Shown here one piece after another: positions 4,034 through 27,696 of a DNA stretch of 39,769 bases. A model generated the notes under the pieces. That model was not told where the DNA came from, did not search any database, and saw only the letters and a program-made list of their open reading frames with translations. A program made the position numbers and the translations under genes. Source of the DNA: an uncultured Bacteroidota bacterium (lineage in GTDB: Bacteria > Bacteroidota > Bacteroidia > Flavobacteriales > Flavobacteriaceae); NCBI GenBank assembly GCA_902510475.1, contig CABXCC010000011.1, positions 1 through 39,769 of the forward strand, read 5' to 3'. Each line of letters begins with the position of its first letter. Within the stretch, counting starts at the first letter, position 1.

Positions 4034-5767
4034 ATGGTTAAAATAAAACTCACAATTTTTTTATTATTTTTTCATGTTTTCTCTTATAATTTTTCTCAAG
4101 AAAATTCATCCCTTTGTGGTACTGTTGTACCCCAAAATTTCTTGGAAATTGAATTGAATTCAAAATCAAATTACAACTATTATATAAATGAGTTTTATGA
4201 TAAAATTCAATTGAAAACTTCAACTGCTTTAACTGATATTCCGGTAAAAATACATGTTGTTAGAAATGACTTTGGCTCAACTAACATAAGTATTGATGAG
4301 ATTTTATCAGAAATTGATGAGGTTAATTCTTTTTTACAAAATTCATTTCTTAGAATAAATATTTGTGATGAAATAAATTACATTAACGATAGCTCTTTAC
4401 ACGAATTTGATTTAGAACAAATAGAATCTTTATATAGTAATCATCAAGAAGATATTTTAAATATATATTTTGTTGAATCTATTACAACTAATAATTCAGA
4501 ATTGTGTGGATATACTTACATGCCAGGCAATCAAAATCAGTTTTATGATGTTATTGTAATGGATAATCAGTGCACAAACTCGTCTGTGAATCAAACATTG
4601 GTTCACGAATTTGGACATCACTTTAATTTAATTCATACACATGGACCTCAAAACGGAGTATTAACGGATGAATTTGTAAATGGAGCTAATTGTTCTAGTG
4701 CAGGAGATAGAGTTTGTGATACACCAGCTGACCCAGAATTAAATTCATCAAATGTTAGTAATGTTAATTGTTTATACAGTGGTAATGTCACAGATGAATA
4801 TGGGCTTCTATTTGATCCAGATACTTCAAATATAATGTCCTATGCCCCACAAATATGTCGTGATAATTTTACAATTGAACAATATGCTAGAATGTATGCT
4901 GGATTTCATACATTTAAAACATATTATAAATGTCCTTCCTTAAATGTTGATTTTTACTCTGAAAATGTGATTGATTACTGCAATGATTTAATGTCTGTTA
5001 ACTTTTTTGATGATAGTGAGGGTGCAATTTCTTGGGAATGGGATGTAGACGGTGATGATATAATTGACTATACGGATCAAAACTTTTCACATAGCTATTC
5101 GCCAGGAGTTTATGATATTGCTTTAAAAATAACTAACGCAAATGAATCTATAACAAAAGTTTTTCCTGAGTATATTAATTTTGAATCAAGCGTGTTTGAA
5201 ACCTCTAAAGTTATTTTAAAGCTAGTAATTATTGATACAGACGAAAATACATGGGAATTAAAAAATAGTGGCGGAGAACTTGTTTACTCTGGTGGACCCT
5301 ACTCAGAGAGCGGAGAATATATTGTAGAGTTAGAAATTATGCCATCTGAATGTTACACATTTACTATTTATGATTCAACAGGAAATGGACTTGCTAACTA
5401 CAGCTCAGAAGGAGTAGAATATTACAGATTAACCACTGAAGAAGGAGAATTAATAAGGTATAATCAAAATTTTGGATTTGATGAGTCTACATACATTAAT
5501 ACTTACTATTTAAGTTTTAATGAAGTTAATGCACCTAACTTTTTTGTTTCACCAAACCCATCTGACTCATTTATTAAAATCAACCACAGCAATGAATTAC
5601 CAGATCATTTTAAAATTTATGATATTAACGGAAGAACAATGAAAATAGGCGATATTAAAGATGAAAAGGATTTAACAATTTCAACGATTGATTTAAGTAG
5701 TGGAATGTATTTTATTTCAATTTATAACGAAAGTAAGACGGAAAAACTAAAATTTATAGTTAAGTAA
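4034..5767 (+). CDS. Secreted M43-type metalloprotease with type IX sorting domain
   Basis: The 577 aa product starts with a clear signal peptide (about residues 1-22, ending FSQ). The protease domain has [11 protein letters not shown] at 191-201, with zinc ligands His191, His195 and His201 and catalytic Glu192. A Met-turn NIMSY at about 266-270 and several Cys (residues 159, 180, 220, 228) fit the pappalysin-like M43 metzincins. A PKD-like domain follows at about 303-375 (WEWDVDGDD), then a beta-rich region. The last 75 residues ([19 protein letters not shown], ending KLKFIVK) form a type A C-terminal sorting signal for type IX secretion, so the protein is probably placed on the cell surface or released. 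The gene overlaps pyrD tail-to-tail by 21 bp. Its substrate is unknown. Confidence 0.92.
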
Positions 5768-6769
5768 TTCTTTATTTATTTTTTTTATAAAACCAGGCCC
5801 TTCATAAATTAAACCTGTGTAAATTTGTATCAAGTGTGCTCCTGCTTTAATTTTTTCAATTGCCTGTTCTACAGATGATATACCCCCCACACCAATTATT
5901 GGCAACTTTCCATTTGTACATTTTGAAATAAATGAGATTACCTCATTACTCCTATCATATAATGGAGCACCACTCAACCCTCCTTTTTCATTTCTATTTT
6001 TAGAATTTAGTTTTGGAAAATTTACAGTAGTATTTGTAGCTATTATTCCATCAATCTTATTAACGCTAATTACGTCTAAAATTTCTAGGATTTTTTCCTC
6101 ATTTAAATCCGGTGAGATTTTTAAAAGAATAGGTTTTGGGTTTAAAGATTCAAACCTTATTTTATTCAAATCATAAAATAAATCATTTAAAAATTCTTTG
6201 GATTGTAATTCTCTTAAGCCAGGGGTGTTTGGGGAACTTACATTTATAACAAAATAATCAACCTGATTATATAATTCCTTAAAACAATAAATATAATCAC
6301 TTTTTGCATCTGAATTTGGGGTCACTTTGTTTTTACCAATATTTCCACCAACAATAATGTTGAATTTTTTTTTTAATCTTTTCTTAATCAATTCGACACC
6401 ATCATTATTGAAACCCATCCTATTGATTACCCCTTTGTCTTCTTTTAATCTAAATAATCTCTTTTTGGGATTTCCAAACTGGGGTTTTGGAGTTACAGTT
6501 CCAATTTCAATAAAACCAAAACCAAATTTTTCAAACTCGTTTATATGGGTAGCATTTTTATCAAAACCAGCAGCCATACCAATAGGGTTAGGAAATTTTA
6601 AACCAAATAGTTCTCTTTCAAGACTATTGTGTCTGACGGAATATATAGATTTTACAAAAAATCCACTAAAAGGAATTTTAAGCAGGATTTTTAATAAATA
6701 AAAGGTTAAATGGTGAATTTTTTCAGGGTCAAATAAAAATAAAAAAGGAGAAATAAACTTCTTATACAT
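5747..6769 (-). CDS. pyrD: Dihydroorotate dehydrogenase (quinone), class 2
   Basis: PyrD oxidises dihydroorotate to orotate with FMN, passing electrons to quinone in the inner membrane; this is the fourth step of pyrimidine synthesis. The N-terminal amphipathic/hydrophobic segment (about 1-45) is the membrane-docking part typical of class 2. FMN and substrate motifs are present: [12 protein letters not shown] (about 61-72), the catalytic loop [12 protein letters not shown] with Ser179 as base, [15 protein letters not shown] and GVGGISS. The length of 340 aa is normal. It lies 16 bp after yajC on the same strand and probably ends that operon. It shares 21 bp with the protease gene coming the other way. 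Confidence 0.96.
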
Positions 6770-7063: not shown

Positions 7064-7540
7064 TTAATTTATTATTAACGGACCAGATGGTGAAACCCCG
7101 TTTGCCTTATTAATAAAAGCCATAATTCTTACAGATTCAGTTCCTTTTTGCGTATTTGCATTAACAGTAACTGTTTTTGTAGTTTTATTTGCACCTTTCC
7201 CGTTAAATTTAACGGTAAATTGCGATGATTCACCTGGCAATAAAGGAGCTCTACTCCAATCTTGAGGAACCGTACAGCCACATGTTGATTTAATCTCACT
7301 GATGACCAAGGGAGCATCCCCTGTATTTGTGTAAGAAAAAACAGTTTCCTGAGCTTCACCGTCGTTAATTGTTCCAAAATCGTGAACATTTCTGTCAAAA
7401 GTCATAACAGGATATTTAAAAGGGGTATTATCACGTACCTCAGCAGATTTTACATTCTCAGACTTTACTTTGCTAAATGGATCATCACCACAGCTAGTAA
7501 ATACAAACATTATTGCAAAGAGATAAATAATTTTTTTCAT
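7064..7540 (-). CDS. DUF1573 lipoprotein
   Basis: The 158 aa product has a lipoprotein signal (MKKIIYLFAIMFVFTSC), with Cys17 as the lipidated residue after FTS. The rest is a single DUF1573 immunoglobulin-like beta domain with FDRNVHDFGTINDGE, TNTGDAPLVI, STCGCTVP and PGESSQFTVKFN, all typical. The role of DUF1573 proteins is not established. The nusB - DUF1573 - yajC order is, as I recall, widely kept in Flavobacteriia. A full TTTG-N19-TATTTTTG promoter stands just upstream. Confidence 0.93.
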   Translation of the reverse strand: MKKIIYLFAIMFVFTSCGDDPFSKVKSENVKSAEVRDNTPFKYPVMTFDRNVHDFGTINDGEAQETVFSYTNTGDAPLVISEIKSTCGCTVPQDWSRAPLLPGESSQFTVKFNGKGANKTTKTVTVNANTQKGTESVRIMAFINKANGVSPSGPLIIN

Positions 7541-17829: not shown

Positions 17830-17859
17830 TTTGCATAATATATAATCAGTCTAATTTTG
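17830..17859 (+). promoter_or_regulatory. Full -33/-7 promoter overlapping the presumed kdsD start
   Basis: TTTG (17830-17833), an 18 bp spacer, then TAATTTTG (17852-17859), both full matches. The last three bases of the -7 box are the TTG taken as the kdsD start codon. If this promoter is used, transcription begins after that TTG. Confidence 0.4.
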
Positions 17860-18822
17860 GATAAAAAAAGTATTATAGAATTTGGAAAGGAAGTGATTAA
17901 ACTTCAATCAGAAAGTATTAATAGTATTTCTAAATATATTGATGAAAATTTTGATAAAGCAATTCAAATAATTCTTAAATCAACAGGAAGAGTTGTGGTT
18001 ACAGGAATCGGAAAAAGCGCTATAATTGCTAATAAAATTGTTGCTACCTTAAATTCTACTGGGACCCCTTCAATATTTATGCATGCTGCTGATGCAATTC
18101 ATGGTGACCTAGGAATAATTAAAAGTGACGATGTTATTATTTGCATTTCAAAAAGCGGAAATACTCCTGAAATAAAAGAGCTAGTTCCGTTTATAAAAAT
18201 GAATAATAATCAGTTAATCGCTATAACTGGTGACAAATCATCTTTTTTAGCCAAAAACTCCTCTGTAATACTAAACAGTTATGTTGAGGTTGAAGTTTGT
18301 CCAAACAACCTTGCGCCTACAAACAGCACAACTGCTCAGCTAGTCATTGGAGATGCCATTGCTGTTACTTTAGTAAAAATTAAAGGATTTACAAAAAATG
18401 ATTTTGCCAAATTTCACCCCGGTGGAAATTTAGGAAAGAAACTAATTTTAAAAGTAAAAGATCTTGTAGAATCTAGTTTAATACCCTCAAATAAAATAAA
18501 TGATTCAATTAATGAGGTTATTATAGAAATTAGTGAAAAAATGCTAGGCATTACAGCTGTATTAAATGACGAAAAGATAGTTGGTGTGATTACCGATGGC
18601 GATCTTAGAAGGACTCTTTTAAATCATAAAGAAATTAAAAATTTAACTGCTCAAGATATCATGTCTGTAAATCCACAGATAATTGATCATGAATCATTAG
18701 CTGTTGAAGCCTTAGAGCTAATGAAAAAACATAAAATTTCGCAATTGGTTACTACAAAAAATGACAAATATCACGGAATTCTTCATATCCAAAGTTTAAT
18801 TAAAGAAGGAATAGCATCATGA
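17857..18822 (+). CDS. kdsD: D-arabinose 5-phosphate isomerase KdsD (KpsF/GutQ family)
   Basis: KdsD turns ribulose 5-phosphate into arabinose 5-phosphate, the precursor of Kdo for LPS. An SIS domain covers about 1-200, with VVVTGIGKSAIIANKI, HAADAIHGDLG, CISKSGNTPEI and PTNSTTAQLVIGDA, followed by FAKFHPGGNLGKKL. Two CBS domains fill the rest. The length of 321 aa fits. The only start that keeps the usual N-terminus is TTG at 17857; no ATG is near, and a promoter box overlaps this codon, so a shorter start (in-frame GTG at 17893, or ATT/ATA) is possible. Its 3' end overlaps tatC by 4 bp. Confidence 0.94.
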   Translation: MDKKSIIEFGKEVIKLQSESINSISKYIDENFDKAIQIILKSTGRVVVTGIGKSAIIANKIVATLNSTGTPSIFMHAADAIHGDLGIIKSDDVIICISKSGNTPEIKELVPFIKMNNNQLIAITGDKSSFLAKNSSVILNSYVEVEVCPNNLAPTNSTTAQLVIGDAIAVTLVKIKGFTKNDFAKFHPGGNLGKKLILKVKDLVESSLIPSNKINDSINEVIIEISEKMLGITAVLNDEKIVGVITDGDLRRTLLNHKEIKNLTAQDIMSVNPQIIDHESLAVEALELMKKHKISQLVTTKNDKYHGILHIQSLIKEGIAS

Positions 18823-19622
18823 GCAATGGTCATGATAATATGTCATTTCTTGAACATCTAGAAGAGCTTAGATGGCATATAATTCGCTCATTAATCGCTA
18901 TCATCTCAGTTGGTTTTATATGTTTCTTAATGAAGGAATTTGTTTTTGATACAATTATACTTGGTCCAAAAAAAATGAGTTTTCCAACCTATACATTTTT
19001 ATGCCAAGCTGCAACTTTTATCGGAGTAGAAACAACTTTTTGTGGTGATGAGTTCCCTTTTGTTATTCAAAACAGGACCATGGCAGGCCAATTTTCAGCT
19101 CATGTTATGACTTCAATAATCGCTGGATTTATCCTTTCTTTCCCATATGTTCTGTATGAATTTTGGAAATTTATCAGTCCTGGGTTATTAGCTAAAGAAA
19201 AAGCACGATCAAGAGGCTTTATTTTCATCTCTTCATTACTCTTTTTCATTGGGGTATTGTTTGGGTATTATATAATAACTCCTCTATCAATTAATTTTTT
19301 AGGCACCTATCAGGTGTCTAATGAAGTTTTAAACGAATTTGATCTAGGATCATTTATCGGTTTGGTTAGGTCATCATCACTTGCTTCAGGGATCATTTTT
19401 GAATTACCAATAATAATTTATTTTTTAACAAAAGCTGGAGTTGTTACTCCAAAGACTTTAGTTCAATACAGAAAATATGCACTGGTTTTAGTTTTGGTAT
19501 TAGCAGCCATAATCACCCCTCCAGATGTCGCTAGTCAAATAATAGTAGCAATTCCAATCGTTATTTTATATCAAGTAAGTATATTTATTTCAAAAATTGT
19601 TGTAAAAAATCAATCAAAATGA
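18819..19622 (+). CDS. tatC: Twin-arginine translocase subunit TatC
   Basis: TatC is the receptor for twin-arginine signal peptides in the inner membrane. The 267 aa product begins with a cytoplasmic stretch FLEHLEELRWHIIRSL, the site that reads the Tat signal. Six membrane helices follow, with YVLYEFWKFISPGL, the conserved Glu in IIFELPI and IITPPD near the end. The first periplasmic loop is long and holds two Cys (in FLCQAA and TFCGDE). The gene overlaps kdsD by 4 bp (ATGA) and lptB by 4 bp, showing translational coupling. No tatA/B gene is in the window. Confidence 0.96.
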   Translation: MSNGHDNMSFLEHLEELRWHIIRSLIAIISVGFICFLMKEFVFDTIILGPKKMSFPTYTFLCQAATFIGVETTFCGDEFPFVIQNRTMAGQFSAHVMTSIIAGFILSFPYVLYEFWKFISPGLLAKEKARSRGFIFISSLLFFIGVLFGYYIITPLSINFLGTYQVSNEVLNEFDLGSFIGLVRSSSLASGIIFELPIIIYFLTKAGVVTPKTLVQYRKYALVLVLVLAAIITPPDVASQIIVAIPIVILYQVSIFISKIVVKNQSK

Positions 19623-20353
19623 TTTTAAAGGCTCAAAATTTACTTAAATCATACGCTGGCAAAGCGGTTGTTAAGGATGTTTCACTCAATCTTAAGCAAG
19701 GAGAAATTGTTGGTTTATTAGGTCCTAATGGTGCAGGCAAAACTACGTCTTTTTATATGATAGTAGGTTTGATTAAACCAAACTCAGGATCTATCTTTTT
19801 GGATGATAGAGAAATAACCAAATTCCCAATGTATAAGAGGGCACAAAATGGGATTGGTTACTTAGCTCAAGAATCTTCTGTGTTCAGAAAAATGAGTGTT
19901 GAAGATAACATTCATAGTGTATTACAAATGACTGATCTCTCGAAAAAAGAACAAAATGATAAAGTTGAATCTTTACTTGATGAATTTGGATTACAGGCCA
20001 TTCGTAAAAGTCGAGGGGATTTATTATCCGGTGGAGAAAGAAGAAGAACTGAAATTGCTAGAGCACTAGCCACTAGTCCAAGTTTTATATTATTAGACGA
20101 GCCTTTTGCTGGAGTTGATCCCTTAGCAGTAGAAGATATTCAAAAAATTGTTAGAGATTTAACCAAGAAAAATATTGGTATTCTTATCACAGACCATAAT
20201 GTTCAAGAAACCCTTGCAATTACAGATAGAACTTACTTAATGTTTGAAGGAAGTATTCTTAAAGACGGTAAACCCGAAGAACTTGCATCCGACGAAATGG
20301 TAAGAAAAGTATACCTGGGTAAAAACTTTGAATTAAGAAAAAAAACTATCTAA
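19619..20353 (+). CDS. lptB: LPS export ATPase LptB
   Basis: LptB powers LptFG to pull lipopolysaccharide from the inner membrane. The 244 aa protein has Walker A GPNGAGKT (about 34-41), Q-loop AQESSVF, signature LSGGERRRTEIARAL, Walker B FILLDEPFAGVDP and switch ITDHNV, all matching LptB closely. It overlaps tatC by 4 bp and shares an operon with kdsD, linking Kdo supply to LPS export. Its stop overlaps the stop of pssA on the other strand by 4 bp. Confidence 0.96.
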   Translation: MILKAQNLLKSYAGKAVVKDVSLNLKQGEIVGLLGPNGAGKTTSFYMIVGLIKPNSGSIFLDDREITKFPMYKRAQNGIGYLAQESSVFRKMSVEDNIHSVLQMTDLSKKEQNDKVESLLDEFGLQAIRKSRGDLLSGGERRRTEIARALATSPSFILLDEPFAGVDPLAVEDIQKIVRDLTKKNIGILITDHNVQETLAITDRTYLMFEGSILKDGKPEELASDEMVRKVYLGKNFELRKKTI

Positions 20354-21066
20354 GTCTTTAATTTGTAATAGGTGCCTATTGATATTAAAATATACAAGCC
20401 TAAAATTAGTGGTATTGCATAGATCCCATATATTATAATTGAAGGAACTGAAACAAAAATTATTAAAAATCTTCTTCTGTTTCCAATAAATTTAAGGCTC
20501 TTAAACTTGAAATTTAAAAGTTTTATGTTTGAAACTAGTAAAAACCCACAAATCAGAGTAATAAACATGATTACATTATAATTTAATATCATGTCAGAAA
20601 AAGCAGATCCATCATTAGAAATTATTGAAAATGAATAAATTAACATTGTATTGGCTGGAGTTGGAAGGCCTTTAAAAAATTTCGAATTTGTTTTAAGTGT
20701 ATTAAACTTAGCTAATCTGTAAGCTGAGCAAAGAGTAATCACAAAACCCGTGAAAGGGACAAAAGAAGAAAAAATTGAACCTACCGAAGATGAAGGTGCA
20801 TCAAGAAACATATTGTAAAGAAGTACTCCTGGGACCAAGCCAAAACTAATCATGTCAGCTAAGGAATCTAATTGTAAACCCAATTCAGACTTAGCATTTA
20901 ATTTTCTAGCAATATATCCATCCAAAAAGTCTAAAATCAGACAGATCACTGATATAACAAAAACATATTTAACTTCTACATTGTTTTCTACAAGTAGTAA
21001 AACTACTACACATCCAATAAAAAGATTAAGTAAAGTAATTGAATTTGGAAAAAATCTGAGATTCAT
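20350..21066 (-). CDS. pssA: CDP-diacylglycerol-serine O-phosphatidyltransferase
   Basis: This integral membrane enzyme joins CDP-diacylglycerol and serine to phosphatidylserine, the precursor of phosphatidylethanolamine. The CDP-alcohol phosphotransferase motif is complete: DGYIARKL, then ELGLQLDSLADMISFG, giving D-G-x2-A-R-x8-G-x3-D-x3-D. FGLVPG and PTPANTM also fit the PssA group. There are about seven to eight hydrophobic helices in 238 aa. It converges on lptB with a 4 bp overlap and is divergent from the PorV2-like gene. A TAnnTTTG box stands 18 nt before its start. Confidence 0.94.
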   Translation of the reverse strand: MNLRFFPNSITLLNLFIGCVVVLLLVENNVEVKYVFVISVICLILDFLDGYIARKLNAKSELGLQLDSLADMISFGLVPGVLLYNMFLDAPSSSVGSIFSSFVPFTGFVITLCSAYRLAKFNTLKTNSKFFKGLPTPANTMLIYSFSIISNDGSAFSDMILNYNVIMFITLICGFLLVSNIKLLNFKFKSLKFIGNRRRFLIIFVSVPSIIIYGIYAIPLILGLYILISIGTYYKLKT

Positions 21067-21178: not shown

Positions 21179-22249
21179 ATGGATAAATACATATTAATCA
21201 TCTTTTTTTTAATTGGTCATCTATTAACTGCACAGAACAGATCAAAGTATTCAAACGAATTTTTAAATATTGGAGTTGATGCAAAATCAATCGGTATGGG
21301 TAATGCGGTATCTTCAACCGTAGATGATGTTAATGCGACCTATTGGAACCCCGCAGGATTGATTAATATTGAAAGAGATGAGATCTCATTAATGCATTCC
21401 AACTATTTTGCTAACATTGCTAACTTCAATTTTATCTCTTATGCTAAAAAAATTGATAGTGAATCAGCTATGGGTTTTTCATTAATTCGATTTGGTGTTG
21501 ATGACATAATGGACACCACGCAGCTTATTGATAATCAGGGAAATATTGATTACAATAGAATTGAACTGTTTTCTGCAGCGGACTATGCATTTATTTTTAG
21601 TTATGCAAAAAGAAATAAACTTCTTAATCTAAATTTTGGGGTTAACGCTAAGATTATTAGAAGAATTATAGGAGACTTTGCAAATTCATGGGGCTTTGGA
21701 TTTGATTTGGGTATACAACATGAAAATAAAAACGGATGGAAATTTGGATTAATGGCTAGGGATATAACCACAACCTATAATTCCTGGTCCTTCGATGAGG
21801 ATAGGCTAAATGATATTCAAAATGCATTGGAAGGAGAAAATCAAGAAATACCAGAAAAAAATGAAATTTCAATACCAAAAATTCAGTTAGGTGTTTCAAA
21901 AGAAATCTCTCTCAGTAGTGATTATTCCATGTTGGCTGCAATTGACTTATTTATGCTCTTTGAGCAAACTAACGATATAATATCAACAAGCTTTGCAAGT
22001 ATAAACCCATCTTTAGGCTTGGAATTTACATATGCCGAACTTGTATATTTAAGATTAGGTTTAGGAAACTTTCAAAATGAACTTCAATTTGATTCAACAA
22101 CAGAATTAAGTTTTCAACCCAATTTTGGAATTGGATTTAATCTTCAAGACATTGAAGTAAATTATGCATTTACAGATATTGGCAATCAATCTGCAGCACT
22201 TTACTCCAATATATTTTCTTTAAAATTTAACCTTAACCTTCTAAGATGA
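21179..22249 (+). CDS. PorV/PorQ-family outer-membrane protein (PorV2-like)
   Basis: The 356 aa product has a signal peptide (about 1-18, ending LLTAQ). An N-terminal family mark follows: LNIGVDAKSIGMGNAVSST, then NATYWNPAGL. Beyond this it is a string of amphipathic beta strands with aromatic girdles (FGFDLGIQHENKNGWKFGLMARDIT), ending in FSLKFNLNLLR, as expected of a beta barrel of the FadL-like PorV/PorQ group. PorV shuttles type IX cargo to the attachment complex; PorV2 is a paralogue without an assigned role. Its stop overlaps the start of the DUF4105 gene by 4 bp, so the two are translated together. Confidence 0.88.
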   Translation: MDKYILIIFFLIGHLLTAQNRSKYSNEFLNIGVDAKSIGMGNAVSSTVDDVNATYWNPAGLINIERDEISLMHSNYFANIANFNFISYAKKIDSESAMGFSLIRFGVDDIMDTTQLIDNQGNIDYNRIELFSAADYAFIFSYAKRNKLLNLNFGVNAKIIRRIIGDFANSWGFGFDLGIQHENKNGWKFGLMARDITTTYNSWSFDEDRLNDIQNALEGENQEIPEKNEISIPKIQLGVSKEISLSSDYSMLAAIDLFMLFEQTNDIISTSFASINPSLGLEFTYAELVYLRLGLGNFQNELQFDSTTELSFQPNFGIGFNLQDIEVNYAFTDIGNQSAALYSNIFSLKFNLNLLR

Positions 22250-23433
22250 TTAGACTTTACTTAATACTATTTTGGCTTTCTATTCACAGTCTTTATTGTA
22301 TCAATAAAACTGAGGGAACAAAAACATCTTTTGAAGAAACAAAATTAAGTATAATATCAATCGGGGAAGGATCTAGTTTGGCAGACGCTTTCGGACATAC
22401 AGGTATCAGAGTTATTAGTAATGGAAATGACATTGTTTTTAATTTTGGAGTTTACGATTTCTCGGCCCCAAATTTTTATACAAATTTTGTAAAAGGTAGA
22501 CCTGTTTACAAATTAGCTATTCAGAAATATGAAAATTTTAAAGATGGTTATATATATCAAAATAGATATTTAGTTGAGCATGAACTAAACATAAGTGAAG
22601 AGTCAAAAATGAATATTATTGATCTGTTAGTCAATAACTCTAGACCGGAAAATAAATATTATACTTATGATTATTTGAGAGATAATTGCTCAACCAGGGT
22701 AGCTGATATTTTAATTGATGATACAAATAATAAATTTAAAGACGACAAATTAGAATCAAAAGCCATCTTTACATACAGAGAACTTATCCATGAAAAAATA
22801 AGCGAAAATTCTTGGGCAGCACTTGGAATTGATTTGTGCTTGGGTGCAATAATTGATAAAAAAATCTCAGTTAGAGAAACTTTTTTTATTCCGGAAACAT
22901 TAATGAAATACTTGGATGAGCTCATGATTGATTATTCAAAACCAATCACAAAAAATATTATTTTTTCACCTGATTCACCATCTAAATATAATGAAGGATT
23001 TCCAAAACCTTTCCTTGTAAATTCAATAATCTCTCTGTTAATTATTGTGCTTACCTATTTTAATTTTAAAAATAATTCTTGGAATAGATCAATAGATTTT
23101 ATCATTTATCTATTTTCAGGACTTATTGGTGTATTAATAATCTATTTATGGTTTTTTAGCAATCACTTTGCTTCAGCACAAAACTTTAATTTTTTATGGG
23201 CGTTTCCTTTTAATTTGGCAGTGGTTTTTGCATTAATTAGAAAAACCCCTCCGATGTGGACAATTAACTTTGTGAAACTAAATATAATTTTACTGATACT
23301 ATTATTTATACATTGGACAACCGGAGTTCAAAAATATAATATAACTTTACTGCCAATATTTATCTCTTTACTGGTTAGATATTCTTATTTAGTAATCCAA
23401 ATAAACAAAACCAGATATGAAAATTTACAGTAA
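22246..23433 (+). CDS. DUF4105 membrane enzyme, candidate lipoprotein N-acyltransferase (Lnb-like)
   Basis: The 395 aa product has a signal peptide or signal anchor (about 1-18), a periplasmic domain (about 30-235) and five membrane helices at about 251-270, 283-306, 314-332, 343-361 and 366-387. The domain is DUF4105, renamed in Pfam, as I recall, as the Lnb N-terminal periplasmic domain. The likely catalytic residues are His51 in FGHTGIR and Cys148 in DNCSTR, the expected His/Cys pair of this papain-like fold. In Bacteroides a DUF4105 protein was reported to add the N-acyl chain to lipoproteins in place of Lnt. That role here is inference. It overlaps the PorV2-like gene by 4 bp and the adenosyltransferase gene by 17 bp. 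Confidence 0.85.
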   Translation: MIRLYLILFWLSIHSLYCINKTEGTKTSFEETKLSIISIGEGSSLADAFGHTGIRVISNGNDIVFNFGVYDFSAPNFYTNFVKGRPVYKLAIQKYENFKDGYIYQNRYLVEHELNISEESKMNIIDLLVNNSRPENKYYTYDYLRDNCSTRVADILIDDTNNKFKDDKLESKAIFTYRELIHEKISENSWAALGIDLCLGAIIDKKISVRETFFIPETLMKYLDELMIDYSKPITKNIIFSPDSPSKYNEGFPKPFLVNSIISLLIIVLTYFNFKNNSWNRSIDFIIYLFSGLIGVLIIYLWFFSNHFASAQNFNFLWAFPFNLAVVFALIRKTPPMWTINFVKLNIILLILLFIHWTTGVQKYNITLLPIFISLLVRYSYLVIQINKTRYENLQ

Positions 23434-23959
23434 AAATGGCGATAAAGGAAAGACTTCGTTAATTGGCGGAGAAATTGTTTCTAAACATGATTTAAGAGTT
23501 GATGCTTATGGGACAATTGACGAATTAAATTCATTTTTAGGTATAATTAAAGATTATTCTAATGAAAAAGACATAAATGAAGTATTATTCAAAATTCAAT
23601 TAAAACTTTTTACCATTGGATCAATTCTTGCTCAATTTGAAACCAAAGAAGAAAACCAGCCAGAAAAACTACAAATAAGTGCTGAGGATACAATCTTTAT
23701 CGAATCTCAAATTGATAAAATTCAGAAAGAATTACCAGTGCTAAATAAGTTTATTATCCCTGGAGGTGACAAATTAGTTTCTTTCTGTCATGTTTCAAGA
23801 GCAGTTTGTAGAAGAGCTGAAAGAAAAATCACAAAATTAAGTGAATTTACTGAGGTTAATGAAAACATACTTACTTATATAAATCGTCTTTCTGACTTTC
23901 TATTTGTACTTGCCAGATATTATACCATAATTTTAGATATAGAGGAATCTTATTGGTAA
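23417..23959 (+). CDS. Cob(I)alamin adenosyltransferase, PduO type
   Basis: This enzyme transfers the adenosyl group of ATP to cobalamin, making the coenzyme B12 used by methylmalonyl-CoA mutase. The 180 aa sequence has the PduO-type marks: KIYSKNGDKGKTSLIGGE (ATP site), YGTIDELNSFLG, then HVSRAVCRRAERK and INRLSDFLFVLAR. It overlaps the DUF4105 gene by 17 bp. A meaB gene, encoding the chaperone that protects the same mutase, lies 3.7 kb downstream beyond secA. No mutase gene is in the window. Confidence 0.95.
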   Translation: MKIYSKNGDKGKTSLIGGEIVSKHDLRVDAYGTIDELNSFLGIIKDYSNEKDINEVLFKIQLKLFTIGSILAQFETKEENQPEKLQISAEDTIFIESQIDKIQKELPVLNKFIIPGGDKLVSFCHVSRAVCRRAERKITKLSEFTEVNENILTYINRLSDFLFVLARYYTIILDIEESYW

Positions 23960-24345: not shown

Positions 24346-27300
24346 ATGCTTGGTAAAATTCTAAAATTATTTGTGGGCGATAAATCTAAAAAAGATTTAA
24401 AGACAATTACGCCCATAATTGATCAAATTCACTCTTTTGAAGACGAAATTGGTAAATTAAGTAATGACGAATTACGAAATCAAACTTCCCTGTTCAAAGA
24501 ACAAATTAAATCATCTGTTTCCGATGTTGATGATAAGATAGAAAATCTCAAAATTGAACTTGAAAAAACTAAAGATTTTGACAAAAAAGAAAGCTTATTT
24601 ACAGAGATTGACAAGTTAAATGAAGAAGCATACAAGATCAATGAAATTACATTGAATCAAATCTTACCCAAAGCTTTTGCTGTAATTAAAGAAACTGCAA
24701 AAAGATTTGTTGACAATAAAGAAATAGTTGTTACTGCTAGTGAATACGACTTAGAATTATCAACAGAAAAAGATTATGTAAACGTGACCAAAGATAAAGC
24801 AACCTGGTTAAATTCATGGGATGCTGCAGGTAAAAAAATTGTATGGGACATGGTACATTACGATGTGCAGCTTATCGGAGGTGTAGCCATGCATCAAGGT
24901 AAAATTGCTGAGATGCAAACCGGAGAAGGAAAAACATTGGTTGCAACCCTACCCGTTTATTTAAATGCCCTAACTGGTAAGGGTGTTCATCTAGTTACGG
25001 TAAATGATTATTTAGCAAAACGTGATAGTGCATGGATGGCACCAATATTTCAATTTCACGGACTTAGTGTAGATTGTATTGATTATCACAGGCCTAACTC
25101 TGCAGAACGAATAAAAGCTTACAATTCAGATATAACTTATGGAACCAATAATGAATTTGGGTTTGATTATCTAAGGGATAATATGGCAAATTCAACAGAC
25201 GATTTGGTTCAAAGAAAACACAATTTTGCAATTGTTGATGAGGTTGATTCGGTATTAATTGATGATGCCAGGACTCCATTAATCATTTCCGGTGCGATTC
25301 CAAAAGGTGATAAACACGAATTTAATGAGCTTAAGCCCAAGATTGAAAGAATTGTTTCAACTCAAAGAAAATTTTTGGTAAATACTCTTGCAGAGGCAAA
25401 AGGTCAAATATCATCTGGAAATGATGATGAAGGATCCTTTAATTTATTAAGAGTTTTTAGAGGAATACCTAAAAATAAGGCTTTGATTAAGTACTTAAGT
25501 GAAGGTGGAATCAAACAACTTTTACAAAAGACTGAAAACTTCTACATGCAAGATAATAATAGAGAAATGCCAAAAATTGACAAGGAACTCTATTATGTAA
25601 TTGATGAGAAAAACAACCAAATTGAACTTACCGACAAAGGAATTGAATTTCTTTCTGGAAAAGATGATCCAAATTTCTTTATCATGCCAGAAATTGGAAT
25701 TGAGATTTCAAAAATTGAAGAAAAAGGTTTATCAAAAGAAGAGGAAGCCAAGGAAAAAGACGAGCTATACAGGGATTTTAGCATAAAGTCTGAACGAATA
25801 CATACAATTAATCAATTATTAAAAGCATACGCTTTATTTGAAAAAGACATTCAATACGTTGTAATGGAAAATAAGGTGATGATTGTAGACGAGCAAACAG
25901 GTAGAATCATGGATGGTAGAAGATATAGTGATGGTTTACATCAAGCTATTGAAGCCAAGGAAAATGTTAAAATTGAGGCGGCTACCCAAACTTTTGCTAC
26001 AATTACCTTACAGAACTATTTTAGAATGTATAATAAGCTTTCTGGAATGACCGGAACGGCAGTAACCGAAGCGGGTGAATTTTGGGAGATTTATAAACTT
26101 GATGTGTTTGAAATTCCAACAAATAGACCTATTCAAAGAGACGATAGACAAGACCTAATTTATAAAACAAAAAGAGAAAAATACAATGCAGTTATTGATG
26201 AGGTAACTGATTTATCTAGATCTGGAAGACCGGTATTAATTGGTACGACTTCAGTTGAAATTAGTGAGCTACTTGGAAGGATGTTAAAAATCAGAAAGAT
26301 TCCACATAATATTTTAAATGCAAAACTTCATAAAAAAGAATCCGATGTAGTAGCCGAAGCAGGAAAACCAGGACAGGTAACTATTGCAACAAATATGGCA
26401 GGTCGTGGAACTGACATAAAATTAATTGATCAAGTAAAAGAAAATGGAGGACTTGCAATTGTTGGTACTGAAAGACATGACTCAAGAAGAGTTGACAGGC
26501 AGTTAAGAGGACGGTCTGGCCGTCAAGGTGACCCTGGAAGCTCTCAATTCTATGTTTCGTTAGAAGATAATTTAATGAGATTATTTGGGGCAGAAAAAAT
26601 TGCTAAAATGATGGATAGAATGGGATTAAAAGAGGGTGAAGTAATTCAACACTCAATGATAACTGACTCGATTGAGAGAGCACAAAAGAAAGTTGAAGAA
26701 AATAACTTTGGAATCAGAAAAAGACTCTTAGAGTATGATGACGTAATGAATGCACAAAGAGAAGTGATATACAGAAGAAGAAATAATTCACTTTTTGGGG
26801 AAAGATTACGTATCGATATATCCAATATGATTTATGATACTTGTGAAAGTATTGTAATTTCTAATAAAAGTGTCAATGATTATAAGAATTTTGAATTCGA
26901 ATTAATACGTTATTTTTCCATTACAACAGATATAAATTCAGATTCTTTTGAATCTATGAATGAAAAGGAAATTACCGATAAAATCTATTCAGTTGTTTTA
27001 AAGCATTATTTAAATAAAATTGAAAATAATGCCAAATTAGCTTTTCCAGTCATTAAGCATGTTTATGAAAAACAAAGGGAAAAATACAAAAGAATTGTTG
27101 TGCCCTTTACAGACGGTATAAAAACATTACAAGTAATAACAGATTTAGAGAGGGCATATAATTCTGATGGAGAACAATTGGTTACAGACTTTGAAAAAAA
27201 TATTTCTTTGGCAATATTAGATGATTCATGGAAAACCCATCTAAGAAAAATGGATGAACTTAAACAATCAGTTCAACTTGCAGTTCATGAACAAAAAGAT

Positions 27301-27696
27301 CCCTTACTTATATATAAATTTGAAGCTTTTGAGTTATTTAAAACACTAATTGATTCTGTGAATAAGGAAATCCTATCTTTTCTTTTTAAAGCTGAAATTT
27401 CAACGGATAATAACAAAAATGTTCAAGAGGCCTCTAGTAGAAGAAGACCAATGAATGTAAATACCTCTAAGGATGAAATTCCAAACACAGAAGAGTTGAG
27501 ACAAAGAAATAGAGCTATTACAAACCAGCAAAGTAATCAACAGGTAGAAACTATCATAAGGTCAAAACCAAAAGTGGGAAGAAATGATAAGGTTACAATT
27601 AAAAACATAAAAACTGCTGAGAAAAAAGAAATGAAATACAAGCATGCTGAAAAACTCGTTAACTCAGGAGAATGGATGATTACAGGAAATGGCTAA
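24346..27696 (+). CDS. secA: Protein translocase ATPase SecA (long Bacteroidota form)
   Basis: SecA drives preproteins through SecYEG by ATP hydrolysis. The 1116 aa sequence shows Walker A MQTGEGKT (190-197), VDEVDSVLIDDARTPL, TNMAGRGTDI and LRGRSGRQGDPGSS in order. It is longer than E. coli SecA (901 aa) by an insert near the N-terminus (about 55-105, helical and charged) and another at about 335-450. Both seem general in this phylum. The C-terminus ends KLVNSGEWMITGNG, with no Cys-rich zinc/SecB-binding motif. The ATG at 24346 gives the expected MLGKILKLFVGDKSKKD start. The gap of 100 bp before it holds a weak TATATTTA at 24305-24312; meaB follows after 12 bp. Confidence 0.97.
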   Translation: MLGKILKLFVGDKSKKDLKTITPIIDQIHSFEDEIGKLSNDELRNQTSLFKEQIKSSVSDVDDKIENLKIELEKTKDFDKKESLFTEIDKLNEEAYKINEITLNQILPKAFAVIKETAKRFVDNKEIVVTASEYDLELSTEKDYVNVTKDKATWLNSWDAAGKKIVWDMVHYDVQLIGGVAMHQGKIAEMQTGEGKTLVATLPVYLNALTGKGVHLVTVNDYLAKRDSAWMAPIFQFHGLSVDCIDYHRPNSAERIKAYNSDITYGTNNEFGFDYLRDNMANSTDDLVQRKHNFAIVDEVDSVLIDDARTPLIISGAIPKGDKHEFNELKPKIERIVSTQRKFLVNTLAEAKGQISSGNDDEGSFNLLRVFRGIPKNKALIKYLSEGGIKQLLQKTENFYMQDNNREMPKIDKELYYVIDEKNNQIELTDKGIEFLSGKDDPNFFIMPEIGIEISKIEEKGLSKEEEAKEKDELYRDFSIKSERIHTINQLLKAYALFEKDIQYVVMENKVMIVDEQTGRIMDGRRYSDGLHQAIEAKENVKIEAATQTFATITLQNYFRMYNKLSGMTGTAVTEAGEFWEIYKLDVFEIPTNRPIQRDDRQDLIYKTKREKYNAVIDEVTDLSRSGRPVLIGTTSVEISELLGRMLKIRKIPHNILNAKLHKKESDVVAEAGKPGQVTIATNMAGRGTDIKLIDQVKENGGLAIVGTERHDSRRVDRQLRGRSGRQGDPGSSQFYVSLEDNLMRLFGAEKIAKMMDRMGLKEGEVIQHSMITDSIERAQKKVEENNFGIRKRLLEYDDVMNAQREVIYRRRNNSLFGERLRIDISNMIYDTCESIVISNKSVNDYKNFEFELIRYFSITTDINSDSFESMNEKEITDKIYSVVLKHYLNKIENNAKLAFPVIKHVYEKQREKYKRIVVPFTDGIKTLQVITDLERAYNSDGEQLVTDFEKNISLAILDDSWKTHLRKMDELKQSVQLAVHEQKDPLLIYKFEAFELFKTLIDSVNKEILSFLFKAEISTDNNKNVQEASSRRRPMNVNTSKDEIPNTEELRQRNRAITNQQSNQQVETIIRSKPKVGRNDKVTIKNIKTAEKKEMKYKHAEKLVNSGEWMITGNG

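Follow-up and report, generated by a model that had tools for sequence, protein, structure and literature searches.

Which enzyme completes lipoprotein maturation in an uncultured flavobacterium, and why should its gene directly follow that of an outer-membrane barrel? Both questions are raised by lnb, an ATG-initiated gene for a 395-amino-acid protein at 22246–23433 (forward strand) of a 39,769-nucleotide (nt) stretch of DNA (positions 1 to 39,769 of contig CABXCC010000011.1, assembly GCA_902510475.1, family Flavobacteriaceae; hereafter the window). Open reading frame and Pfam evidence point to a lipoprotein N-acyltransferase of the Lnb type. Taken as a whole, the analysis gives us high confidence that the gene encodes an Lnb-type apolipoprotein N-acyltransferase, responsible for the last maturation step, whose genomic slot is shared in most loci read with the unrelated enzyme Lnt.

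Domain architecture and proposed chemistry of the window protein

A Pfam scan assigned residues 32–182 to Lnb_N (PF13387, formerly DUF4105), with 76.1 bits against a cut-off of 22.2 in the profile check that a first-pass annotation of this DNA had proposed, and residues 249–388 to 5TMH_Lnb (PF25221; 103.3 bits against 25.2). Residue 51 is a histidine and residue 148 a cysteine, a His-before-Cys order that is the permuted one, and neither varies in any of the 47 rows of an Lnb alignment (the window plus 46 Lnb-cluster members from loci L001–L094; L001 is the window's own region, hence the window is present twice). By hydropathy, residues 1–19 are hydrophobic, as are five C-terminal segments (251–275, 281–311, 313–332, 335–361 and 365–386), and a low-confidence structure model places helices where these five segments lie. 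A sequence search of solved structures returned no relative of Lnb, the best match being an antibody chain (E 0.14). The DUF4105 domain, the His51 and Cys148 pair and the five C-terminal helices described by the first-pass annotation are therefore borne out, as is, at the level of the Pfam family, its identification of an Lnb-type enzyme; by its domain content, the window protein is a member of the known Lnb family. A histidine in the transmembrane domain, H307, is likewise invariant in 47 of 47 rows.

The same two domains, a His preceding the Cys and a five-helix C-terminal domain are found in the Lnb of Bacteroides, a lipoprotein N-acyltransferase (Armbruster et al. 2024, PNAS e2410909121, as cited in the accessible portions of PMC12994826 and PMC13103446). 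The window protein differs in its score on the corresponding NCBIfam model (NF051878; 237 against a cut-off of 550) and in being coupled to PorV2 within a KdsD-TatC-LptB-PssA block. DUF4105 is placed among lipid-acting permuted NlpC/P60 enzymes with conserved His and Cys in the text available of PMC12994826, and an earlier survey, likewise consulted in part, puts it among papain-like families (PMC10318531). We infer the chemistry from the characterised Lnb family, together with a probable acyl donor and membrane orientation: the protein would expose a periplasmic permuted NlpC/P60 (papain-like) domain anchored to the inner membrane by five helices. Cys148, activated by His51, would accept an acyl chain from a phospholipid and transfer it to the lipoprotein cysteine, at the amino group left free once the lipoprotein has been diacylated and cut by signal peptidase, and the last step of lipoprotein maturation in the family would be performed either by Lnb or by the unrelated Lnt.

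Complementary distribution of Lnb and Lnt

Lnt (TIGR00546), an enzyme of nitrilase-type fold, serves the same pathway step and fills the same slot in other family genera, where it too can directly follow PorV2; it belongs to a different protein family from Lnb and has no gene over cut-off in the window's genus. Both enzymes were sought in a family sample of 139 genomes, one per genus (the window's own plus 138 at ≥90% completeness). Lnb_N was found in 103 of these. At E ≤ 1e-25, Lnt was found in 39 and exceeded the curated cut-off in 37 (the two below it being a contig-end fragment of 124 bits in G186 and a 101-bit match in G275). One hundred genomes carry Lnb only, 36 Lnt only, three both and none neither, a complementarity with a Fisher's exact P-value of 3.5e-30, uncorrected for relatedness. 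The three genomes with both enzymes are G194 and G246, in which Lnb lies near a contig start, and G275, in which Lnt is weak. Two Lnt genes, the second scoring 170 bits, are present in G149.

Within the window's genus, no Lnt over cut-off was found in any of 21 genomes (mean completeness 70.7%), and at this number and completeness an overlooked universal lnt in the genus is very unlikely. The window's own genome likewise yielded none over cut-off; a single 264-amino-acid frame holds two stretches of weak similarity (29 and 19 bits). The first-pass expectation of a genome lacking lnt thus agrees with what was found in this genome and in 20 others of the genus, with the qualification that the window's own assembly, at 65% completeness, proves nothing alone.

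A phylum sample of 148 genomes, eight of them shared with the family sample, extends the comparison; Lnt was checked in 58, namely all 38 Lnb-positive genomes and the 20 Lnb-negative ones among those listed. In the same class (37 genomes), Lnt exceeded the cut-off in two of the 22 genomes with Lnb (G017 and G084) and in 15 of the 15 without Lnb among those listed. The Lnt proteins of these two genomes both pass the Lnt model and are divergent, with 29% mutual identity and about 22–24% to other Lnts where matched (L163 in G017, 4787–6340; L169 in G084, 4956–6473); on these alignments, they may perhaps constitute a second Lnt type. Within the family and the class, Lnb takes the place of Lnt; outside the class it does not.

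Evidence for and against an Lnb-type function

Several observations weigh against assigning the window gene to Lnb. First, NF051878, the NCBIfam Lnb equivalog model, aligns over nearly the full length of the protein and yields 236.7 bits, below its curated cut-off of 550, so the protein is assigned to the Pfam Lnb family and not to the NCBIfam equivalog. Seven other scanned Lnb proteins also fell below 550, at 209–322 bits (L170 from another genus of the same family; L164 and L167 from other families of the class; L171 and L173 from outside the class; L004 and L006 from close relatives), which makes the cut-off look narrow, as if it marked one narrow clade. Second, the structure model, built from 7 sequences, is poor (predicted local distance difference test score (pLDDT) 49.9, below 50 in the Cys region). 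Third, the absence of lnt from the window's genome was rejected as evidence on its own: that 65%-complete assembly also yielded no Lgt, LspA or SprA. Fourth, replacement is not strict across the phylum: outside the class, Lnt exceeded the cut-off in 11 of 16 Lnb-positive genomes (G003, G008, G030, G050, G058, G061, G085, G089, G100, G108 and G135).

The sub-threshold equivalog score and the joint presence of Lnb and Lnt outside the class would also suit an enzyme of Lnb fold that acts on another acyl substrate, as a phospholipase-like protein or a different acyltransferase, and a superfamily relative, Tox-Act1, is a phospholipase according to the accessible part of PMC12994826. As far as that text describes them, the permuted NlpC/P60 lipid enzymes Tox-Act1, LRAT and YiiX have in common with Lnb a His-then-Cys papain-like core acting on acyl chains, and differ in being toxins or lipid enzymes of other clades; the likeness is by description only. 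Another substrate is nevertheless hard to reconcile with a match to the Lnb model over almost the entire protein, the shared transmembrane domain, and the near-perfect complementarity and positional exchange with Lnt inside the family, and we regard it as very improbable. The product of the window gene is very probably Lnb, a known enzyme that, judging by these family features, would add the last fatty-acid chain to lipoproteins.

One slot in a conserved gene block

Directly upstream of lnb lies the gene for PorV2, an outer-membrane protein of the PorV/PorQ family (21179–22249, forward strand, 356 amino acids; 428 bits on NF052325 against a cut-off of 325). The two genes share the four bases ATGA (22246–22249, forward strand), the start codon of lnb at 22246–22248 overlapping the TGA of PorV2 at 22247–22249, in line with the coupling to a PorV2-like gene noted in the first-pass annotation; in this genome, lnb is probably co-translated with PorV2. 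The same −4 overlap is present in all six relatives retrieved by a scan of named genomes (L004–L009). Tight coupling is not the rule, however: among loci read that hold both genes and allow the start to be placed, the PorV2 stop and the first ATG in frame are no more than 20 nt apart in 16 of 28 with Lnb, counting the window and those six, and in 2 of 15 with Lnt.

Counted at E ≤ 1e-40, PorV2 is present in 95 of the 139 family genomes and absent from 44. With adjacency defined as same strand, directly downstream and within 500 nt of model ends, Lnb directly follows PorV2 in 73 of the 77 genomes that have both; in the other four, a single gene on the opposite strand intervenes (G169), the two genes lie on separate contigs (G184) or Lnt has the place (G194 and G246). 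Among the 21 genomes with PorV2 and Lnt, Lnt is directly downstream in 15, of which 14 have 186–288 nt between model ends and the fifteenth, G186, carries its Lnt fragment after PorV2 at the contig end. In G159 the contig ends just past PorV2 and Lnt lies at the end of another contig, and the two genes are apart in G176, G185, G255, G267 and G275 (in the last of which PorV2 precedes Lnb). Over the family sample, PorV2 is directly followed by one or the other enzyme in 88 of 95 genomes.

Gene order was read in 85 regions from 79 of the 139 genomes, where the commonest arrangement was RecQ-KdsD-TatC-(AhpD)-LptB-PssA-[PorV2]-enzyme (RecQ, AhpD and several other block names being what we take these genes to be by their look). 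PssA lies no more than two genes upstream in 33 of 42 PorV2 loci (41 genomes). Where PorV2 is missing, PssA directly precedes the enzyme in 32 of 38 loci: 15 of 18 with Lnt and 17 of 20 with Lnb, these 20 including two in which the enzyme was dropped by the open-reading-frame caller and one that is different. The enzyme stays after PssA without PorV2, and the slot therefore belongs to the block and not to PorV2 alone. In most loci read, Lnb and Lnt share one slot of one block.

Outside the family, PorV2 over cut-off stood beside Lnb or Lnt in none of 15 genomes, and the 18 regions read there contained no gene labelled PorV2 (nor, in L172, one labelled as the enzyme). In the comparison across Bacteroidota that the first-pass annotation had proposed, the PorV2-DUF4105 pair holds together within the family, with 73 of 77 adjacent, and in none of the 15 PorV2 genomes beyond it. 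Other neighbours common to Lnb and Lnt were seen in those more distant genomes (loci L158, L161, L164, L168 and L160; Pfam run on one member of each surrounding): a CHU_C-domain protein comes after Lnb and an alpha/beta hydrolase in G007, G033 and G091 and directly after Lnt in G115, and methionyl-tRNA synthetase adjoins Lnb in G091 and Lnt in G064.

Repeated switches between the two enzymes

Enzyme type takes 8 changes on the tree built from four linked flank genes, 7 of them forced by well-supported (starred) branches; 58 of its 60 genomes were counted, those with both enzymes being left out. On a tree of the unlinked gene SprA (57 of 59 genomes counted; the window's genome, with no SprA match, is absent), it takes 7 changes, 6 of them forced. 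Shuffled enzyme labels require about 18.5 changes, far more than either tree, and enzyme type is therefore inherited, yet has switched repeatedly; at least six switches between Lnb and Lnt are forced on the unlinked SprA tree. A PorV2 tree of 26 genomes takes 6 changes, equal to the SprA tree of the same 26, with 3 forced. That PorV2 travels with enzyme type was considered and set aside, there being no sign of it on this PorV2 tree, a weak one with stars on 4 of its 23 inner branches.

As to the route, the shared slot might descend from an ancestor with lnb and lnt side by side, one of which was later lost, instead of from repeated recombination in conserved flanks. At support ≥95, Lnt conflicts with the SprA tree in few splits (2 of 8, against 0 of 11 for the flanks of the same 24 genomes), and Lnb does so in 4 of 9, with the flanks of the same 32 genomes at 7 of 14; vertical descent of both enzymes is compatible with these counts. 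No tandem lnb-lnt pair occurs among the 139 genomes, however, the three genomes with both holding them apart, and at least six switches would demand a long-lived tandem. We treat the ancestral tandem as a possibility with somewhat less than even chances.

In the accessible portion of PMC12994826, Lnt is described as having replaced DUF4105 proteins time and again, in three genomic contexts, so the general idea of replacement between Lnb and Lnt is already in print; the PssA/PorV2 slot may be one of these three contexts (figure 4B), and the word PorV does not occur in the text of that paper, figures apart. As far as literature searches can tell, a fixed slot at PssA-[PorV2], complementarity at genus level and the switch count are new. 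In-place exchange of Lnt and Lnb also offers natural pairs of relatives in which the two enzymes can be compared.

Possible roles of PorV2

The enzyme itself belongs to a known kind, and the most interesting part of the locus is a PorV2 neighbourhood that survives replacement of the enzyme. PorV2 exceeds the cut-off of NF033709 (PorV/PorQ family) and distantly resembles the solved PorV 6h3i_F (E 1.2e-5, sequence search), which it shares with PorV and PorQ of the type IX secretion system (T9SS); it differs from them in lying far below the PorV and PorQ equivalog cut-offs and in being missing from 44 SprA-bearing genomes. SprA was detected in 138 of the 139 family genomes (the sole miss being G000), including all 44 without PorV2; its presence is no test of secretion, and its invariance leaves PorV2-SprA co-occurrence unmeasurable. 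PorV2 is dispensable in this family, and a simple T9SS dependence of PorV2 was rejected, since SprA occurs in all 138 other genomes with or without it.

The explanation towards which we lean is that the pairing reflects inherited order only, the KdsD-TatC-LptB-PssA-[PorV2]-enzyme block being old and PorV2 unrelated to lipoprotein acylation. It agrees with the enzyme's persistence directly downstream of PssA in PorV2-less loci, with the lack of any such neighbourhood in the 15 PorV2 genomes outside the family and with the absence of PorV2 from 44 of 139 genomes. It sits less easily with the 88 of 95 genomes in which either of two unrelated enzymes serving a single step directly follows PorV2, and with the −4 overlap in the window and L004–L009. 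Among the 42 PorV2 loci, moreover, the link to the enzyme persists where that to PssA is lost in six and the reverse holds in two, numbers too few to decide; three loci have neither link and two stop at a contig or region edge.

It is nonetheless plausible that PorV2 is tied to lipoprotein N-acylation, and a functional tie to N-acylated lipoproteins or lysophospholipid would account for a pair that survives the replacement of its enzyme. PorV2 and the enzyme might cooperate, the barrel handling either triacylated lipoproteins, for assembly or display at the surface, or the lysophospholipid that N-acylation releases, whichever enzyme acts. The neighbourhood preserved across unrelated enzymes and a PorV2 tree not sorted by enzyme type are in keeping with this, as is a FadL-type barrel, BamG, of the Bacteroidota barrel assembly machinery (BAM) complex, which the accessible part of PMC12578637 proposes for complexes of barrels with surface lipoproteins and to which PorV2 is likened by description only. 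The same authors, in that part, hold a PorV-like function of BamG unlikely; the predicted PorV2 model, from 7 sequences, is poor (pLDDT 31.1); and PorV2 may instead be a shuttle for certain T9SS substrates, a role that a review, in what could be consulted of it, suggests for other barrels resembling PorV (PMC10202324). The slot without PorV2, the 0 of 15 outside the family and the 44 of 139 also count against cooperation, which we consider doubtful. These facts, and the lower share of direct pairing with Lnt (15 of 21), leave the first-pass suggestion that the pairing could link lipoprotein maturation with surface export a conjecture. In its specific form, which makes PorV2 the outer-membrane partner dedicated to N-acylated lipoproteins, or to the leftover lysophospholipid, and has it kept as a unit with the enzyme at hand while that enzyme was repeatedly swapped between two families, the idea is tentative and on balance unlikely; inherited order explains the same facts and is rated above it.

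Literature searches, which reached few subscription papers, returned nothing on a link between PorV2 and an N-acyltransferase, and under the name PorV2 only a false match (PorV followed by reference number 23). The flipping of surface lipoproteins to the outside is little understood, according to the available text of PMC12578637. A barrel and the last lipoprotein-maturing enzyme as a two-gene unit, kept through enzyme replacement, would offer a genetic handle on surface lipoproteins.

Other genes of the window

The left border of the slot is a PssA-like CDP-alcohol phosphatidyltransferase (20350–21066, reverse strand; PF01066, 71.6 bits), which scores slightly below the cut-off on TIGR00473 pssA (101.9 against 107 bits). 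Further left, the conserved block comprises forward-strand genes that we take, by the look of their translations, to encode an LptB-like ABC ATPase (19619–20353), a TatC-like protein (18819–19622) and a KdsD/KpsF-like isomerase (17857–18822). On the right, a PduO-type cob(I)alamin adenosyltransferase (23417–23959, forward strand; PF01923, 196.7 bits; over cut-off on TIGR00636) overlaps the 3′ end of lnb and is followed, in a PduO/SecA arrangement, by what is presumably a SecA-like protein (24346–27696, forward strand).

A T9SS type A sorting domain (TIGR04183, 54 bits) lies at the end of a 577-amino-acid protein encoded at 4034–5767 (forward strand), which makes a T9SS likely in this organism despite the missing SprA match in its 65%-complete assembly. 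The two lipoproteins that the first-pass annotation had listed are indeed present in the window: a DUF1573 lipoprotein (7064–7540, reverse strand) and a lipoprotein-like serine hydrolase of the beta-lactamase family (PF13354; 39214–39769, forward strand, open at the window's end), whose lipobox-like motifs, FTSC and LSGC, respectively, were assigned by eye.

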